DNA of 64,000 nt from Paenibacillus massiliensis 2301065 = DSM 16942 (GTDB lineage: Bacteria; Bacillota; Bacilli; Paenibacillales; Paenibacillaceae), in contig NZ_KB898191.1 of the NCBI RefSeq assembly GCF_000377505.1, positions 1 to 64,000 of the forward strand, given 5' to 3'. Below the pieces are notes generated by a model. It searched no databases. It was not told where the DNA came from and was given only the letters and a program-made list of their open reading frames with translations. The stretch's first letter is position 1, and every line of letters begins with the position of its first letter. Both the position numbers and the translations under genes were made by a program. Positions 23,220 to 31,523 of the stretch are shown piece after piece.

Positions 23220-24086
23220 TTAACGTAACGCTCTCGCAATGATCAGCTCCAGCCACTTCCAAGGTAAAATAGCTTTTGCCCAGCACATCAACCCGGCTCC
23301 TTGGCCCACCGCATAACGAAGACGAGGGGAACGTTTGGAGACAATCCGTGCAATTAGGTCCGCCACTTGCTGTGGATCAGGCGCTGTCTTCGCAGCTTGT
23401 CTGGAGTAGCTCAGCACGGCATTTAACCTGTCCCGGTAAGGTGAGTCTTGGGCCATGCGGATTCGTCCCAGCCCCTTGTTCCAGATCGCCGTGCGGAATG
23501 CCCCAGGCTCCACGATGACGACCTTCACCCCGTAAGGTGCCATCTCATGACGGAGACTTTCGCTATATCCCTCGACGGCGAACTTGGAGGCTGCATAGGG
23601 CCCGTAACCTGGGAATCCCACCAGTCCGCTCACACTGCTGACATTGATGATGGAGCCGCTGCCACGCCGTCTCATATGAGGCAGTACCTCTCTTGTCATC
23701 GCTACAAGCCCGAAAAAATTCGTCTCCATCTGCTCACGCCAATCGGTGAGCGTCAGTTCCTCCACATAGCCGCCCAAGGCGAAGCCTGCATTATTTACCA
23801 GCACATCAATCTGTCCAAAGCGTCCAAGCACCTCGGCTACTGCCTGCTGAATGGATTCGCTATCGGTCACATCCAATGGAAGAAGATGTATTCGATCGGC
23901 AACTCCTTTTTCCCGTGCCAGAGCCATCAGTTCCCCCGCTCTAGCCGTATTTCGCATCGTCGCAGCTACCTGGTAGCCAATACTGGCCAACCTGACGGCA
24001 GTCAGCAGCCCAAAGCCACTGGACGTACCTGTAATCAAGGCGACTGGCCTATGCTTAGGTGCGCCCGAGCTCATTTGTGAATCCAA
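23220..24086 (-). CDS. Short-chain dehydrogenase/reductase
   Basis: This 288-residue classical SDR has TGTSSGFG for cofactor binding, NNAG, catalytic Ser in NVSSVSG and YAASK. The TG-x3-GFG motif and C-terminal extension place it with the ketoreductases often found beside regulatory genes, similar in layout to the gene at 51202. A TTG start at 24086 is 9 bases from AAGGAGG; the internal ATG at 24074 is further away. It is 33 bases downstream of a small unknown gene and probably cotranscribed with it. The substrate is unknown. Confidence 0.88.
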   Translation of the reverse strand: MDSQMSSGAPKHRPVALITGTSSGFGLLTAVRLASIGYQVAATMRNTARAGELMALAREKGVADRIHLLPLDVTDSESIQQAVAEVLGRFGQIDVLVNNAGFALGGYVEELTLTDWREQMETNFFGLVAMTREVLPHMRRRGSGSIINVSSVSGLVGFPGYGPYAASKFAVEGYSESLRHEMAPYGVKVVIVEPGAFRTAIWNKGLGRIRMAQDSPYRDRLNAVLSYSRQAAKTAPDPQQVADLIARIVSKRSPRLRYAVGQGAGLMCWAKAILPWKWLELIIARALR

Positions 24087-24118: not shown

Positions 24119-24472
24119 CTAGTGGCAATAATACAGCACCACGATGATGCCTCCAGCGTCACGCTCCCACAGCTCGGCAAAGTAACAGTAGCCGCTCGGG
24201 AACTCCGTCAGATCAGCCTCATCGGACAAGCAGATATGATGCCTATAGGCTGCATCCCACTTCGAAGTAACCTCTTGAAAAGGCGTATGCTCCAGCTGTG
24301 CGACATCACTCGTCTGATAACTGCAGATGAATATGTCCTGAGCCTCTTCCTGTTGCAACATGCGCTCAAGCTCTTCCAAGCTCGCAAGCTGCCTTCCAGC
24401 TCGGGAGATGATCGCGTCGCCATCATAGATTGCCTGCTGTTGCCTGTCTATGAAATACCTTGGTCTCGCCAA
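24119..24472 (-). CDS. Hypothetical protein
   Basis: This roughly 118-residue protein starts at TTG 24472 (GGAGGG 10 bases upstream; a TTG at 24490 is possible). Features include YFIDRQQQAIYDGD, a helix SLEELERMLQQEEAQDIFICSY, and a beta-rich end GYCYFAELWERDAGGIIVVLYY. No signal or membrane helix is present and no family was recognised. It lies between the six-gene biosynthetic operon and the SDR on the same strand, with no terminator seen on either side, so it could be the seventh gene of that transcript. Confidence 0.6.
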   Translation of the reverse strand: MARPRYFIDRQQQAIYDGDAIISRAGRQLASLEELERMLQQEEAQDIFICSYQTSDVAQLEHTPFQEVTSKWDAAYRHHICLSDEADLTEFPSGYCYFAELWERDAGGIIVVLYYCH

Positions 24473-24558
24473 GCCCTCTTGACCCTCCAATAGTCTTAGT
24501 ATTCAATCGCATTATGGTTTAGATGCTGTGCAGGCACTCGGCGTACACTCGCTCAAGG

Positions 24559-25731
24559 TCATAGCTTCAGGCGCTGAATGATCGGCACTCCGATCCGATA
24601 GAGCAGCTTCTCCAGCATGGACCAGCACATCCGAGTACCAAGAGGCAGATGCTTGTCATAGACGGCCATGACCTCCAGCTCGGCTACAGCTCCGCGATTA
24701 CGCTTGAACTGTCCGACACCAGAGCTCTCATGTAGCAGCAATCCCCTCTCGTCCGCAATTCCGATCAGCACTGCAGACAGCATTCGATACAGTCCCGTCT
24801 GCTGCGGCAGCTCCGTATCATAGCCAAAGAGCGGCGCAGTCATGATCCCATCTCTGACAAAAAAGCCAAGAATGGCGTCCAGACGGCCATCCTTGCGCAG
24901 CCCATGCAGCTCCAGTGTCCCTGATTGGATAGCCGTCTGGATGTACAGCTCCGTGAACTGCGGGTTACATGGCGAATATTTATGAATGTACAGCATGTCG
25001 TACAATTCCTTAATACGGGGCGCATCCGCAAGGCGCATGTCCTGCGGCCCTGCGACAGTGTAGCCATGCTTGTCGATAAGTCCACGATCTCGCTTCACAA
25101 GCCATCTGGCCTTCGCATTTATGGATAGGCCTGCTGGCTTCGAGGCTGCTTGCAGCAGATAAATCTGACGGCTGGGGATGAGCTTGCACCCATACTTGCG
25201 TACGGTCTCCAAAAAAGTGCCACTTGTAACGTCATTCAACGATCGGCACACGATAGCATGTTCTGGATAACGTCTCTGCAGTTCAGTTATGAGTGCTTCC
25301 AGCCCTGCGGGGCTGATGGCGGGAAACACGTTCGTAGATAGCAGCCAGTTATTCACCTGTACCACCTGATTGAAGTGAGCCTTCCGCAGCAGCAGACCGT
25401 TGCCACTAAGCAAGCTGCCCAAAATAGCCTCAGCAGGCCGATTATGGAGCAAAGCAAGCTCTTCTCGCGCATAGGTCACAAAATGAGTGTATGGCGAGCA
25501 GACATAGGAATTGTCATACTCCATCTCGTTGATAGTCAGTGGGATGGGAATACCGTCTACCGTAGCCACAAGCAGACGAGTGCGCACATTGTGAACATAC
25601 AGCTGGATTGACGGGGCGAGCAGTAGCGGCAGGAGATAGGTTTTGGCATCGTGCCCATACGCTGTCTCTGGCCAGCTCAGGTCCTGAATATTCGATTCAT
25701 CGTAGAAGACGATTGATGCGCTATTGCTCAT
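24559..25731 (-). CDS. FemAB/BioF2-like GNAT acyltransferase (last gene of biosynthetic operon)
   Basis: This 390-residue protein resembles the Acetyltransf_6/FemAB fold: an N-terminal half with YSYVCSPYTHF-like features (here NSYVCSPYTHF) and a C-terminal half with HGLRKDGRLDAILGFFVRDG and LLLHESSGVGQFKRNRG. Enzymes of this fold transfer acyl or aminoacyl groups from CoA or tRNA. ATG at 25731 overlaps the upstream ligase stop by four bases (ATGA), with AGGAG 9 bases upstream. In this pathway it is expected to acylate an amine or hydroxyl of the intermediate. Confidence 0.72.
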   Translation of the reverse strand: MSNSASIVFYDESNIQDLSWPETAYGHDAKTYLLPLLLAPSIQLYVHNVRTRLLVATVDGIPIPLTINEMEYDNSYVCSPYTHFVTYAREELALLHNRPAEAILGSLLSGNGLLLRKAHFNQVVQVNNWLLSTNVFPAISPAGLEALITELQRRYPEHAIVCRSLNDVTSGTFLETVRKYGCKLIPSRQIYLLQAASKPAGLSINAKARWLVKRDRGLIDKHGYTVAGPQDMRLADAPRIKELYDMLYIHKYSPCNPQFTELYIQTAIQSGTLELHGLRKDGRLDAILGFFVRDGIMTAPLFGYDTELPQQTGLYRMLSAVLIGIADERGLLLHESSGVGQFKRNRGAVAELEVMAVYDKHLPLGTRMCWSMLEKLLYRIGVPIIQRLKL

Positions 25732-27290
25732 GATCTCCATCTCCTCTCTACCCGTCTTAGCTTCAGCGCTCCCGAATTGTGCTCATAGGTGACGAAACGA
25801 AGCTCAGGCACCAGACAACCAATTTTCCCGCACAGGGCTGTAATTTGTTCAGCAATCTGATTCTGCACCATGGCTCGCTCTTGTGAAAGAACACCGCTCT
25901 GTAACTGCCCACCATTTTGTACCTGCCCATCATTCTGTAGGTCCATACCATTCTGAAGCTCCATATCATTCTGTGACGTCACATCCTTCTGATGACCTAC
26001 ATTTTGTAGCTCCTCATTATTTTGTAGTTCCTCATTTTCTTGAAGCACTTGCCCCATAGTGGCAGAGGAATCTGCGTATAAAAAGGATATCTCCAGCTGA
26101 AGCGGTCCCGTCTGCACGACACGATAGTGCTCAATGTTCGGGGATGCTGCGATCACTGCACGGCTGATAAAATCAGGGAACACGGCAGCTGGCTCACGGT
26201 GCTCCACATGCGGCAGATAGATAATATCATCACAGCGGCCTTCAATCCGCTCAATGGCGGTGAATACCGAGCCGCAAGAACAGGGAGCTGCCGCCTCTGT
26301 CAGAATATCGTTCAGACGATAGCGAACAATGGGCTGGGATGTACGCGAGAAATCCGTAATAATCGGCACAAAGCGGCGCGTATCCGGGTCAAGGTATTCT
26401 TTTTCGATATGAACAAGATCTTCATTCAAATGAATCGTGCCCTGCTCACAGGTTGTCCCAAGGAACCCTTCCGTACATTGGTATGCCTGGTGCACCGTCT
26501 GTCCGAAGGCTTCCTCGATGTAGTGGCGATCCAGTGGGTCGAGCACTTCTGCTACAGAGATCAGCTTGTGAGGACGGGCTGTGAGACTGCCTGCCACGCA
26601 GGCCTCAGCCAGAAGACGTAGCATGGATGCAGGAGCAATCCAGATCCCTGGTCGATATGCCTCCATCCGCTGCACCAGCCTCTCCAGTGGCTCCAGCAGA
26701 TCGAAGTATTCGAACTGCAGCCGCCCCCGCTTCACCGACTCATATAGGTTGCTGTTGGCCCGGAGGAAGAAAGCAATCTTCTCTTCCTGCAGCAGACTTC
26801 CCGGAAGTAGCTTGGCCAGCACCGTTCCACTCCAGGCTGCCTGCTCGCGATCGCTCACGATGAATAGACCACGATTGCCTGAGGTACCAGACGACAGACC
26901 GACCGTTATGCCATTCAGCAGCGGCTTGAAATCACGTGTCTGCTCCGCCTGGGAGGCCATCTCGAAGGCTTGATCACGGCTGAGACCAACGGTGTTCAGC
27001 TCGTCAAAGTGCTCCATCATGTTTTGCTTGTCGATTATGGGGAAGCTGCGCCAATCTTCAGAAGCTGTCCCTTCCCATAGCTTGCGATAAAAAGACGAGG
27101 CCTGCCGCACACGATGCACATGACGGATAATCTGTCTCTCCTGCCACGCTTCAAGCTTACGGCGAGCACTTTGTCTACGTATATCCACTGATTGTGATGC
27201 AGCATGGCGTTGCTGGGACAGAGACTGCCGGAAGCGCCACTGATAATACAAAGTACGAATATAATAATACAAGACCAGATGCAGCTTCAC
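25728..27290 (-). CDS. CapK/F390 synthetase-like adenylate-forming ligase with inserted repeat
   Basis: This 520-residue protein starts at GTG 27290, overlapping the MBL gene stop (GTGA), with AAGGGG upstream. The phosphate-binding loop VGLSSGTSGNRGLF and the IVRYRLNDI segment are typical of the PaaK/CapK/F390-synthetase branch of adenylate-forming enzymes, which activate carboxylates as acyl-AMP. About 50 residues in the C-terminal domain (about 415-470, DNA 25885-26045) are Gln/Asn/Leu-rich repeats of ELQN, DLQN and QVQN type absent from ordinary members. The extreme C terminus (LRFVTYEHNSGALKLRRVERR) is family-like, so the repeat is an in-frame insertion. Confidence 0.8.
   Translation of the reverse strand: MKLHLVLYYYIRTLYYQWRFRQSLSQQRHAASQSVDIRRQSARRKLEAWQERQIIRHVHRVRQASSFYRKLWEGTASEDWRSFPIIDKQNMMEHFDELNTVGLSRDQAFEMASQAEQTRDFKPLLNGITVGLSSGTSGNRGLFIVSDREQAAWSGTVLAKLLPGSLLQEEKIAFFLRANSNLYESVKRGRLQFEYFDLLEPLERLVQRMEAYRPGIWIAPASMLRLLAEACVAGSLTARPHKLISVAEVLDPLDRHYIEEAFGQTVHQAYQCTEGFLGTTCEQGTIHLNEDLVHIEKEYLDPDTRRFVPIITDFSRTSQPIVRYRLNDILTEAAAPCSCGSVFTAIERIEGRCDDIIYLPHVEHREPAAVFPDFISRAVIAASPNIEHYRVVQTGPLQLEISFLYADSSATMGQVLQENEELQNNEELQNVGHQKDVTSQNDMELQNGMDLQNDGQVQNGGQLQSGVLSQERAMVQNQIAEQITALCGKIGCLVPELRFVTYEHNSGALKLRRVERRWRS
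25885..26045. repeat. Coding minisatellite inside the adenylate-forming ligase gene
   Basis: The segment consists of degenerate in-frame units of about 15-24 bases around a cattctg(t/a)ag core, giving repeated LQN-type peptides. The unit length keeps the reading frame, so copy changes would lengthen or shorten a loop without breaking the enzyme. Confidence 0.85.
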
Positions 27291-28153
27291 TCCAGCACCC
27301 CTTTTCCCCATGCTGCAAGTGCTTCACGACAGTGACTTGGCACAATACGCAGTGTCGGAACCTCCTTATGCAGCTGCCGCAGCAGGTCATAACTCTGCTT
27401 GTATTGTTGTCGATCAGACATGATGAGGCCAGCAGCCGGATGTGGGAGGCGATCCTCAAGATAAGCCCGGCTTGACCAGACTGCATCCGCACACAGCAGG
27501 TAATCCTCTGTTGCCGTGGATACGAATAGGCCGATCATCCCAGCAGCATGACCAGACAGCTCAATGGCCAGCAGACTGCCGTCGCCGAATAGATCATAAC
27601 CTTCTGTACAAGGAAAGGCAGAATCCTTCCCTGCATTGAACGGCTGTACGATGTCCTTCTCCCGGATCGGCAGTGAGCGCTCTGCAAAATCCTCAGGCAG
27701 CAGCCCTGGCAGAAAGCCTGCCCGCACACTCGCTAGCGGCCCTAGATGCTTGACGGCACGATATGCTTTATCCAAGTAAATGTAGCGTGCATTGGGAAAA
27801 TCCCGAAGGCCCCCGATATGGTCCCCGTGAAAATGAGACAGAACAATATATCTCACATCATCTGGCGCGATGCCCGCTGCCCCTAGCTGGCTGGCGGCAC
27901 TATCCTTATCCTGATAAACTACTGGCGTAATGTACCGATACAGTGCGCTCGGCAGGTGAGCCGTCTCCTCGAAAAAGCGCTGACTATAGCCCGTATCGAA
28001 TAGCACAGGACCGTGCTCAGGATGAAGAATGCAGGCGAAGCCAGCGGGAAAAGCCACCGAACGAAGTGACCCGCCGCGCAGCGTCAGCCATTCAGGATGT
28101 GCACAATAGCCTGCCGCCCGGAGCATGAGCTTGATTGGCATCGTTGTCATCAT
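27287..28153 (-). CDS. MBL-fold metallo-hydrolase
   Basis: This 288-residue protein has a complete HxHxDH zinc motif (H107, H109, D111, H112 in LSHFHGDHIGG), a second His in ELSGHAAGMIG and an Asp in LLCADAVWS. It starts at ATG 28153, overlapping the epimerase stop (ATGA), with no strong ribosome site, so it probably relies on coupling. The family includes lactonases and thioesterases; in a ketosynthase operon without a thioesterase, release of an acyl product is a plausible role (inference). Confidence 0.83.
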   Translation of the reverse strand: MMTTMPIKLMLRAAGYCAHPEWLTLRGGSLRSVAFPAGFACILHPEHGPVLFDTGYSQRFFEETAHLPSALYRYITPVVYQDKDSAASQLGAAGIAPDDVRYIVLSHFHGDHIGGLRDFPNARYIYLDKAYRAVKHLGPLASVRAGFLPGLLPEDFAERSLPIREKDIVQPFNAGKDSAFPCTEGYDLFGDGSLLAIELSGHAAGMIGLFVSTATEDYLLCADAVWSSRAYLEDRLPHPAAGLIMSDRQQYKQSYDLLRQLHKEVPTLRIVPSHCREALAAWGKGVLE

Positions 28154-29142
28154 GATGGCTTCACCCACCAATCAGCAAAGCGTGTCAGCCCTTCTTCGAT
28201 TCCCACGCTGGGGACGTAGCCCAGCCGCTCCCGAGCAAGTGATATATCCAGCGTCTGCGTCATCCCTACCGAGCCGACCGTATATCGAGTCAATGGCGGC
28301 TCCCCCTGTAGTGGCAGCACACGATAGGCGAGCTCCAGTGCTCCAGCCAGTCCGTATGCGACCGGATAGGGAATCGAGCGGGTCCGCAACGGAATCTCCA
28401 GCATAGTGAACAGCTTGTGCAGCAGCTCACGGAAGCCGAACGGCTCTCCGTTCGAGATGTTATAGGCCTGGCCCATAGCTTCCGGTGCAGCGCTGCATCC
28501 AAGCAGCATGGCGTCCACTACATTGTCCACATAAGTAAGATCAATCATGGCCTGTCCACCATTCAGCATCGGTACGCCACTCTTCCGATTCGCTTCCAGT
28601 AGCCTCGGGAACAAGGTCTGATCCTCTGGTCCGAAGATGGCACGTGGACGCAGAATCAACGCAGGTAAGCCCTCCTGGCAGGCCCGGAGCACCTCTTGCT
28701 CTGCCAGCAGCTTCGTAGCTGCGTAGGTATTGGCAGGACGCAGGGGAAGCGGCTCGGATTCCCGAATCATGCGACGTGGCTTATAATCGAAATAAATGCT
28801 TGGGGTTGAAATATGTATGAGACGCTTAGTGCCGTGTCTCTGACAACCAGCAATGATATGACGAGTTCCTTCTACATTGCTGCCATAGAACTCATCGTAA
28901 GCCCCCCATGGAGCTGATAATGCACCGCAATGAAATACATAATCCTGCCCTGCACACGCCTGTGCAACGCCAACAGCATCACGCAGATCTGTCTGTACGA
29001 ACCGGACGCCTTCCTGCTCGAGTAGATTGCCAGCAGTGCTCGACCGCCCCATACCACTGACCTCCCAGCCCAGCTGAACCAGGCGCCGGGCGGCATGGCG
29101 GCCGAGAAATCCGGTGGCCCCTGTTACTAATGCTCTTGTCAT
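28150..29142 (-). CDS. NAD-dependent epimerase/reductase, 3-beta-HSD (OleD-like) group
   Basis: This 330-residue extended SDR has ALVTGATGFLG at the N terminus, HISTPSIYFDY and the YAATK catalytic motif. The STPS(I/V)YF segment and 3-beta-hydroxysteroid-dehydrogenase layout recall OleD, which reduces the beta-keto acid made by OleA in long-chain olefin synthesis. It starts at ATG 29142 (or the adjacent in-frame ATG at 29145) overlapping the ATP-grasp stop, with GGAGAG just upstream. It is predicted to reduce the product of the KAS III enzyme of this operon. Confidence 0.82.
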   Translation of the reverse strand: MTRALVTGATGFLGRHAARRLVQLGWEVSGMGRSSTAGNLLEQEGVRFVQTDLRDAVGVAQACAGQDYVFHCGALSAPWGAYDEFYGSNVEGTRHIIAGCQRHGTKRLIHISTPSIYFDYKPRRMIRESEPLPLRPANTYAATKLLAEQEVLRACQEGLPALILRPRAIFGPEDQTLFPRLLEANRKSGVPMLNGGQAMIDLTYVDNVVDAMLLGCSAAPEAMGQAYNISNGEPFGFRELLHKLFTMLEIPLRTRSIPYPVAYGLAGALELAYRVLPLQGEPPLTRYTVGSVGMTQTLDISLARERLGYVPSVGIEEGLTRFADWWVKPS

Positions 29143-30395
29143 CATGTCTCTCCGTTCCATTCGATATCCTGAGTCAACGCCTCGGTCACTGTGATACCCA
29201 GCCGTCTGCTCAGGCGCCAGGCTTGATGTACCATGTACAGCTGCTCGACAGCAGGCCCCCTGTCTTCTCGGTGCCAGATGACGTCGCGTGCTCCGCGCAG
29301 CGCTATCATCCATGTGCGCCAATCCTGTCTGCTCCGATTCTCCTTGAGCCCACATCCCAGCATGGCCAGGCTGATCATTGCTGCAGCCCCCGAAGTTGGT
29401 GTCACGGTGCGCCCGGCCTCCAGCAGCGAGTGCGGGTCTGTTAATGCAACAGCTAATTCGCCCTTCGCTGTGAACAGATGAGTGCCGCTCGTGGCGCGTG
29501 GATTGCACTCCAGCGGATATAGTGTCCCATCCTCTGCTTGTATGAAATCAAAGCTGATCTGACCCGAATAGCCAACAGCCGCGACGAACTGCTGTACCCA
29601 TGCATATGCCTCTGGCTGATCTGCCTGCTGGAAATGCACGCTGGCACCTGCATCGCCTGTGCGATAGCGGCATTCATAATTGGCGTGGGCCACGATGCTC
29701 CCCTCATAAGCTACACTGTATGTACACCAGGCTGTTCCCTGTATGTACTCCTGAGCAATCCATGGATTGAATGGACTTATTTGTGCCCATGCTGCTTCGC
29801 GCAGTGCTCGATCGGCAGATTGTCTCTTCCGCGGCGCTCCAGCAGAAGACGGCAAAATAACCCGTGACGCGAACCTGGAATAAGCCGGCTTGTACACAAG
29901 TCCTGATCCTATGCCAAGCGCTTCCGCACTTCGCCATGCTTCCTCGCTCGTAATAACCTCCGTATGCGGCACCTGAAGCCCGAGCTGCTCTGCTAAGCGG
30001 ATGAATTCTCCCTTATGATGCAGCTGGTGCAGTATGTCCAGCTCTGGTGCCAACACTCGGCAGTGGCGCTGCAGCCGCTCCCGTTCGCGAGCAATGTGAA
30101 ATATTTCCTCACAGGTCGGAATCAGCAGATCAATCTGCCAGCGTACAAGCAAGCTTTCCAGCGCTTCCACAAAAGCCTGTGGCTGTTGTCGTGGCGGCGG
30201 CAAGACAGCTGCCTCCTTCACTGCACTGGAGGCTCGGCACAAATAACGTGATATGCTGTCCGCCGCATACACCTGATGACCCGCATAATGAAGCTGTCTA
30301 GCCAGCTCCAGCGCGACAGGTGCTCTGCCACCAGTGATGAGTATGTTCAGCGGCCTTGCAAGCGGCGGTAGAGCTGCAGCCTCCTTAATAATCAA
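29142..30395 (-). CDS. ATP-grasp ligase
   Basis: This 417-residue protein has an N-terminal Rossmann-like preATP-grasp domain (NILITGGRAPVALELARQL), a central ATP-grasp with GLVYKPAYSRFASRV and WIAQEYIQGTAW, and the Mg-binding QISFDFIQAEDGTLYPLECNPRATSG. It joins a carboxylate to an amine, hydroxyl or thiol through an acyl phosphate. TTG at 30395, inside the KAS III gene end, is chosen because GGGAGG lies 8 bases upstream; the AAGGAGG right after the KAS III stop has no in-frame start at a useful distance. Confidence 0.82.
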   Translation of the reverse strand: MIIKEAAALPPLARPLNILITGGRAPVALELARQLHYAGHQVYAADSISRYLCRASSAVKEAAVLPPPRQQPQAFVEALESLLVRWQIDLLIPTCEEIFHIARERERLQRHCRVLAPELDILHQLHHKGEFIRLAEQLGLQVPHTEVITSEEAWRSAEALGIGSGLVYKPAYSRFASRVILPSSAGAPRKRQSADRALREAAWAQISPFNPWIAQEYIQGTAWCTYSVAYEGSIVAHANYECRYRTGDAGASVHFQQADQPEAYAWVQQFVAAVGYSGQISFDFIQAEDGTLYPLECNPRATSGTHLFTAKGELAVALTDPHSLLEAGRTVTPTSGAAAMISLAMLGCGLKENRSRQDWRTWMIALRGARDVIWHREDRGPAVEQLYMVHQAWRLSRRLGITVTEALTQDIEWNGET

Positions 30396-31386
30396 GAACC
30401 ATGCCTCCCAGCGACAGCCCAGCCGCCGTACCGAGTAGCAGCATCCGCTCCCCGCGCTGAATACGTCCTTGCTGGATGGCTTCATGCAGCCCCATGGGAA
30501 TGGAGGAAGCTATCGTGTTCCCATGGTTCGGCGTAATGTTCATTAGCTGCTCCTGCGAGATCCCCAGCTTCCTGCACAGCAGACGCATCGCCATCGCACT
30601 TCCCTGATGGGGAATGACCACCTTGAAGTCCTTCATCCTCGTTCCTGAACGAGTGAACAGCTCTTCCATGAATTCAGGCAGCAGTCTGGAAGCCATACGG
30701 AATATTCCTTGCCCGTCCATATGGAATCTGAACGGCTCTTCGACAGGAATATGCGGCAGATCAGGATGATACTTCGTTCCTCCACCTGGTATTTCCGAAT
30801 AATGAGCCCCTTGACTATAGGTGCGCAGCGAGGTGTGGATAATCTGCGACGCATCATTCGTATGGGACGGTCCGATCACAACGGCTGCAGCTCCATCGCC
30901 GAACAAAGCAGCGCTCTCCTTGTCCTTCCAGTTCAGGCCAACCGAGGCAACCTCTGTCGCTACGAGTAGCACATGCCGATAACGCCCCGCATCGACCATG
31001 TAAGACAGCACATCCAATCCTGTCAGAAAACTCAGACACGTAGCATCTATATCAAAAGCAGGAACCCCTGACATCTCCTGCCCCATCGCTTTCTGAATCC
31101 ATACCGCAGTGGAGGGTAACGGCTGCTCCTTCGTACCGCTCGTACACACCAGACAGTCGATATCTGAGAACTGGAGCCCTGCATTCACAAGGGCAGCCTC
31201 CGCCGCTCTGGCTCCCATATAAGAAGCGGTCTCTCCTTCGCCCACATAATGCCGAACACCGACGCCTGTAATTGTATTTACCCAGCCAGCAGGCACACCA
31301 AGGCGCTCATCCAGCTCTTCATCCGTTACGTTGCGACTAGGGAGGTATTTCCCCGTACCCAATATTTTCACTCTACGTAATTGCAT
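30385..31386 (-). CDS. 3-oxoacyl-ACP synthase III-like ketosynthase
   Basis: This 333-residue FabH/OleA-type thiolase-fold enzyme has an intact triad: Cys117 in DIDATCLSF, His260 in IPHQGS and Asn290 in NHGNTIASS. It catalyses decarboxylative or non-decarboxylative Claisen condensation of acyl thioesters. It is the first gene of the operon; ATG 31386 (MQLRRVKILGTG) has GGGAG 9 bases upstream and the family-typical N terminus. The absence of fatty acid synthesis genes around it argues for a specialised pathway and not the housekeeping fabH. Confidence 0.9.
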   Translation of the reverse strand: MQLRRVKILGTGKYLPSRNVTDEELDERLGVPAGWVNTITGVGVRHYVGEGETASYMGARAAEAALVNAGLQFSDIDCLVCTSGTKEQPLPSTAVWIQKAMGQEMSGVPAFDIDATCLSFLTGLDVLSYMVDAGRYRHVLLVATEVASVGLNWKDKESAALFGDGAAAVVIGPSHTNDASQIIHTSLRTYSQGAHYSEIPGGGTKYHPDLPHIPVEEPFRFHMDGQGIFRMASRLLPEFMEELFTRSGTRMKDFKVVIPHQGSAMAMRLLCRKLGISQEQLMNITPNHGNTIASSIPMGLHEAIQQGRIQRGERMLLLGTAAGLSLGGMVLDY

Positions 31387-31444: not shown

Positions 31445-31453
31445 ATTATAACA
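31445..31453 (-). promoter_or_regulatory. Extended -10 promoter of the biosynthetic operon
   Basis: The minus strand reads TGTTATAAT, a consensus -10 box with the upstream TG extension, 60 bases before the KAS III start. The -35 region is poor. An inverted repeat GCCTTGATTCAAGGC lies just upstream of the -10 (31467-31481), in the place of a -35 element, so regulated initiation is likely. Confidence 0.6.
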
Positions 31454-31481
31454 GCACTGTACACCGCCTTGAATCAAGGCA

Positions 31482-31523
31482 AAAAAACACCGTTCCTTCC
31501 CAGGGGGAGAAAGGCGGCGTTCG
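31482..31523 (-). terminator. Terminator of the PP2C transcript
   Basis: On the minus strand an imperfect GC-rich hairpin (CGCCG-CCTTTC paired with GAAGG-A-CGGTG) is followed by TTTTTTT. It insulates the biosynthetic operon from the upstream phosphatase gene. Confidence 0.7.

Follow-up and report, generated by a model that had tools for sequence, protein, structure and literature searches.

The closest described relatives of the system considered here are the ketosynthases MxnB (myxopyronin) and CorB (corallopyronin), the OleABCD proteins of olefin synthesis, and the PqsA-E proteins. The PQS operon (PqsA-E) combines a ketosynthase III (KAS III), a hydrolase of the metallo-beta-lactamase (MBL) fold and an adenylating ligase. 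MxnB condenses two acyl chains, and both MxnB and FabH work on chains bound to acyl carrier protein (ACP) or coenzyme A (CoA) (PMC5724707), while OleA (Glu117) and PpyS (E105) need a catalytic glutamate whose column is marked in MxnB by V94 (PMC4578411). An operon of Paenibacillus massiliensis 2301065 = DSM 16942 resembles each of these in part. It lies on contig NZ_KB898191.1, in a 64,000-nt window whose forward-strand numbering supplies all coordinates below, and it is a conserved, horizontally patchy operon, probably biosynthetic. Its enzyme families are all known; their conserved combination, and the modular partners that go with it, are apparently undescribed, as far as this can be tested. 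The first-pass annotation of this DNA had already called the combination undescribed, and our literature search (most subscription papers being outside its reach) turned up neither a paper that names this ligase family nor one that describes the operon. The sole mention found of F390, in a ladderane study (PMC2649909), concerns a gene of Desulfotalea psychrophila described as acyl-CoA-ligase-like and not the operon set.

Six co-oriented genes run on the minus strand from 31386 to 24559, each overlapping the next, and open reading frame (ORF) and sequence reading finds all their catalytic residues intact. In order of transcription these are KAS (30385..31386), a stand-alone ketosynthase III with C117, H260 and N290; GRASP (29142..30395), an ATP-grasp enzyme; OLED (28150..29145), an NAD(P)-dependent reductase of the extended short-chain dehydrogenase/reductase (SDR) class, similar to OleD and with S113, Y141 and K145 conserved; MBL (27287..28153), a metallo-hydrolase resembling acyl-homoserine lactone (AHL) lactonases; F390 (25728..27290), an adenylate-forming ligase of the F390-synthetase-related, PaaK-like family TIGR02304; and FEM (24559..25731), a dual-GNAT transferase. 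GRASP starts with a TTG codon at 30395, preceded by GGGAGG, within an 11-base overlap with KAS. The remaining four junctions overlap by 4 bases each, as ATGA at GRASP/OLED, OLED/MBL and F390/FEM and as GTGA at MBL/F390. The first-pass annotation had the coordinates and the KAS triad right, and both its enzyme classes and its co-expression architecture are supported; it also saw an overlap at every junction, one of them of 11 bases, and only its "one of 1-4 bases" needs correcting, to four overlaps of 4.

Among solved structures, KAS is most similar to MxnB (4v2p, 233 bits) and CorB (4yuc, 230 bits), with FabH behind (185 bits) and PqsD far weaker (93 bits). In a maximum-likelihood tree all 105 operon KAS proteins form a single clade (support 93/77), which unites with MxnB/CorB at 100/100 and stands apart from FabH, also at 100/100, with three FabH sequences as the only outgroup. 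The cysteine is found in 105 of the 105 relatives and the histidine and asparagine in 103 each, the remainder being gaps; as in MxnB and CorB, the Cys-His-Asn triad occurs without the OleA-type glutamate, whose column holds Leu or Ile in every one of the 105. KAS passes the NCBIfam model PRK07204 (NF005541, beta-ketoacyl-ACP synthase III; 431 bits against a cut-off of 402) and was rejected as FabH both by its position in the tree and by score (238.7 bits against the TIGR00747 cut-off of 292.1). Assignment as OleA was rejected from the glutamate column and from the placement beside MxnB/CorB. Because its clade is apart from FabH, the glutamate is replaced, and the genome carries two other, separate FabH genes, KAS is neither the housekeeping FabH nor OleA. 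The surroundings differ from those of MxnB and CorB too, as the operon has no polyketide synthase (PKS) or nonribosomal peptide synthetase modules and instead has a reductase, a hydrolase, a ligase and head-group genes. It shares with the PQS operon the presence together of KAS III, an MBL-fold hydrolase and an adenylating ligase, but it lacks anthranilate genes and adds the reductase and the putative amino-acid genes.

Scanning one genome per species turned up at least 584 ligase loci; synteny counts use the best 80. The search centred on Bacillota, and shares outside that phylum rest on plasmids, Escherichia coli and the best 80 loci. KAS-GRASP-OLED-MBL-F390 occur in this order in 68 of the 80 loci, and the GRASP start codon stands at the identical 11-base overlap in 66 of 72. 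Every operon gene is under purifying selection relative to the nearest species (ratio of nonsynonymous to synonymous substitution rates, dN/dS, 0.06-0.26), and pairwise core-gene distances over 24 divergent loci correlate at 0.89-0.93, as expected for genes travelling together. From the kept order, the kept overlap, the selection and the correlated distances it follows that the operon is not a chance arrangement. Many of the 80 loci are from Paenibacillaceae and are not independent, so the cross-phylum loci weigh more. The ligase is found in 67 of 398 sampled Bacilli genomes, one per species (17%), and in 21 of 145 genera; relatives of the operon occur in other Bacillota, proteobacteria, cyanobacteria and Fusobacterium. 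Scans of viral contigs found no relative. The synteny check that the first-pass annotation had proposed is thus strongly favourable, with five genes in order and a core seen across phyla. Its six-gene unit has to be redrawn: the genes are real, but FEM is optional (50 of 80 loci) and the conserved unit reaches a short-chain dehydrogenase gene, SDR, beyond the six-gene coordinates (23220..24086, minus strand; 46 of 80 loci).

What recurs across phyla is a four-gene core of KAS, OLED, MBL and F390 with exchangeable partners. Pseudomonadota have KAS-OLED-MBL-F390, with no GRASP at its usual place; Fusobacterium and a genus of Bacilli whose genomes measure about 2 Mb have the order OLED-MBL-F390-KAS; and a contig of a Parachlamydiaceae metagenome-assembled genome has KAS-GRASP-OLED-MBL-F390. 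The partners are GRASP and FEM in Bacillota, Paraburkholderia and rhizobia, a Rieske protein often being present there too; two other Rhizobiaceae plasmids pair FEM with DUF3419; and Burkholderia stagnalis and E. coli have PAP2, FA_hydroxylase and FA_desaturase. Glycosyltransferases of families GT21 and/or GT28 take that place in Fusobacterium, Paenibacillus caui, another Bacilli genome, the genus with the 2-Mb genomes and a cyanobacterium. The E. coli version has seven genes, sits between narI and a tyrosine tRNA pair, and occurs, nearly always complete, in 672 of 5426 complete genomes (about 12%); carriers include ABU 83972, Nissle 1917 and a sequence type 131 (ST131) isolate.

Some loci depart from this pattern. 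Megaplasmids scatter the core genes among many hypothetical genes, unlike the tight operon elsewhere: on a plasmid of Pseudomonas Leaf58 (L161) they spread over about 10 kb, and on pMPPla107 of P. amygdali (L055) the reductase is about 16 kb away from the ligase. Distant ligase relatives at two loci (L070, 12553-15151; L072, 9252-11871) have no KAS and lie beside an integral-membrane acyltransferase-like gene (HGSNAT/Acyl_transf_3). A protein of about 200 residues without a Pfam match accompanies GT21 in Fusobacterium and two Bacillota (L155, 5151-5798; L190, 12410-13045; L153, 11893-12297), with a weak match in a cyanobacterium (L136, 2455-3051).

Apart from KAS, only F390 passes a curated model, TIGR02304 (507 bits against a cut-off of 251.9). 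GRASP, OLED, MBL and FEM fall below all curated NCBIfam cut-offs of named functions and match Pfam at superfamily level only. Alignments covering about 60 to 105 relatives for each protein show conservation of the Ser-Tyr-Lys triad in OLED, of HxHxDH and the further metal ligands in MBL, and of SSGTSG, YQCTEG, CxCG and a C-terminal K517 (counting residues from position 27311, where the ORF begins) in F390. The ligase was rejected both as coenzyme F390 synthetase (TIGR03335, 33.5 bits against 458.7) and as PaaK phenylacetate-CoA ligase (TIGR02155, 25.6 against 646.3), and MBL as an AHL lactonase of the AttM/AiiA type (88.7 against 390 and 47.6 against 375). OLED scores highest against OleD models, so the label "OleD-like" in the first-pass annotation stands at family level; it does not extend to the equivalog NF042422 (267 bits against 580). 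The best PDB match of OLED is a decarboxylating sterol dehydrogenase. At about 40% identity, YbjS of E. coli stands nearer to the operon reductase than does the reductase encoded in the E. coli cluster (35%).

For GRASP and FEM the evidence comes from AlphaFold models, with predicted local distance difference test (pLDDT) scores of 90.6 and 93.5. The GRASP model is closest in fold to the L-amino-acid ligase BL00235, at a sequence identity of 16%, with other ATP-grasp enzymes close behind. The best solved folds for FEM are the aminoacyl-tRNA-dependent transferases Sbb17 (ranked first), FemX and MprF, with Z scores of 14.2-18.1 over 246-290 residues; sequence identity to these is 8-14%, and FEM has no membrane domain. 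CoA-dependent GNATs rank lower, at Z of about 13-14. The predicted folds suggest that GRASP and FEM attach amino acids, which would narrow the "two amide/ester-forming steps" proposed earlier.

Taking these results together, we put about even confidence in a reading in which the core builds a long hydroxy-acyl chain and activates it, and the partners add a head group, made of amino acids in this strain, to give an acyl-lipid-type metabolite. KAS would join acyl thioesters into a beta-ketoacyl chain; OLED would reduce this to the beta-hydroxyacyl form; MBL would free the acid by thioester or lactone hydrolysis; and F390 would convert the carboxylate to acyl-AMP for transfer. In the Paenibacillus strain GRASP and FEM would then supply the polar part in the form of one or several amino acids, a job that in other lineages may fall to the glycosyltransferases, to the DUF3419 transferase, or to PAP2 with the hydroxylase and desaturase. 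The order of steps is a guess from the enzyme classes, and we infer the substrates, the lipid nature and the amino-acid head likewise. The earlier description of the pathway as "carrier-free" is not supported: the operon contains no carrier gene, but since the substrates of FabH and MxnB are chains held by ACP or CoA (PMC5724707), KAS likely uses a housekeeping carrier.

The main ground for expecting a lipid-like product is that most of the partners are known from lipid chemistry. The sister relationship of KAS to MxnB/CorB favours the joining of acyl chains, as MxnB joins two of them (PMC5724707), and the two FabH genes elsewhere in the genome support the same reading. The kept gene order and overlap, the core's recurrence in other phyla, the correlated gene distances and the folds of GRASP and FEM count in its favour as well. 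Several observations weigh on the other side. FEM is absent from 30 of the 80 loci, and its dual-GNAT fold is common to CoA-dependent acyltransferases such as mycothiol synthase and N-myristoyltransferase (NMT). In the tree MxnB is a sister of the operon KAS clade, not a member. No exporter or dedicated carrier is seen with the operon, and the partner genes of other lineages may act on another product. Somewhat more tentatively, the four-gene core could build the backbones of a class of bacterial lipids that has yet to be described, combining with exchangeable modules for the head group (amino-acyl, glycosyl, aminocarboxypropyl, hydroxylated/desaturated) and having passed by gene transfer into at least four phyla, commensal and pathogenic E. 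coli included. In the literature within reach, no described product was found for what is an intact, complete pathway in roughly a sixth of sampled Bacilli species and an eighth of complete E. coli genomes. Were the operon to make a lipid, or a signal that resembles one, this would add a new class of compound in well-studied bacteria, and the swapping of modules across phyla offers a direct route to finding which genes determine the head group.

The same kinship of KAS with the pyrone synthases MxnB and CorB can also be read as pointing away from membranes, to a secreted signal or antibiotic of the pyrone, butenolide or lactone type, for which KAS, like MxnB, would fuse a pair of beta-ketoacyl chains, leaving the remaining enzymes to trim and reduce the result and conjugate it to amino acids. 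The resemblance of MBL to lactonases fits such a product, as does the fact that Sbb17, the best fold match of FEM, is an antibiotic-tailoring enzyme. This is rather unlikely, however, given that the partners in other lineages are membrane-lipid enzymes, that no exporter, resistance or regulator gene is conserved with the operon, and that no PKS is present in it to supply beta-ketoacyl chains. Nor do we expect an Ole-like pathway with replaced parts, in which KAS would stand for OleA, OLED for OleD, F390 for OleC as beta-lactone former and MBL for OleB, to yield a beta-lactone or olefin. Condensation, reduction, adenylation and hydrolysis are indeed all present in one operon, as in OleABCD, and OLED is related to OleD; but the glutamate of OleA/PpyS is replaced throughout, the OleD cut-off is missed, and the ligase and hydrolase belong to other families, the operon having no OleB or OleC homologue and no AMP-binding or alpha/beta-hydrolase Pfam match. 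The additional tailoring genes would be left without a role. An Ole-like route is therefore improbable, and the first-pass annotation was correct that this is not plain olefin synthesis.

Two further readings deserve still less weight. PaaK-type ligases and lactonases are frequently catabolic, and with the sterol dehydrogenase as best structural match of OLED it could be argued that the core degrades or detoxifies an acyl compound, the ligase activating it, the reductase acting as a dehydrogenase, KAS as a thiolase-like cleaving enzyme and MBL as a lactonase. This is quite improbable, since the relatives of KAS condense, the partners (desaturase, hydroxylase, glycosyl- and aminoacyl-type enzymes) are those of biosynthesis, and no transport or oxidation genes are present. 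We regard it as very improbable that KAS is just an accessory FabH in a variant of ordinary fatty-acid initiation, among neighbours unrelated in role: its NCBIfam label and intact triad would allow this, but the genome's two other FabH genes, the firm exclusion of the KAS clade from FabH, and the travelling together of four core genes across phyla all argue otherwise.

Upstream of KAS, also on the minus strand, are a terminator-like hairpin with a T-run (31481..31520), preceding the operon, a perfect 15-base palindrome, GCCTTGATTCAAGGC (31466..31480), that is a candidate operator, and an extended -10 promoter-like element, TGTTATAAT (31445..31453). The hairpin was read by eye, has an altered stem in the nearest species, and was not listed by a consensus scan. 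The palindrome is present in the nearest species and was not found in relatives beyond it; the -10 element is a pattern match only, and its spacing is identical in the nearest species. Because these three elements, all of them sequence matches only, stand just upstream of KAS, the operon probably has a promoter of its own.

Between FEM and SDR lies ORF8 (24119-24490), which encodes 123 residues without a family match. It was dropped as a candidate member of the operon, being present in the nearest species only and weakly constrained (dN/dS 0.46). The F390 ligase contains, between its two domains, a stretch of imperfect 18-base repeats (25898-26036; LQNxxE-type, about 60 residues). Since the nearest species has 24 extra residues there and other relatives have no repeat, this stretch is lineage-specific and expanding.

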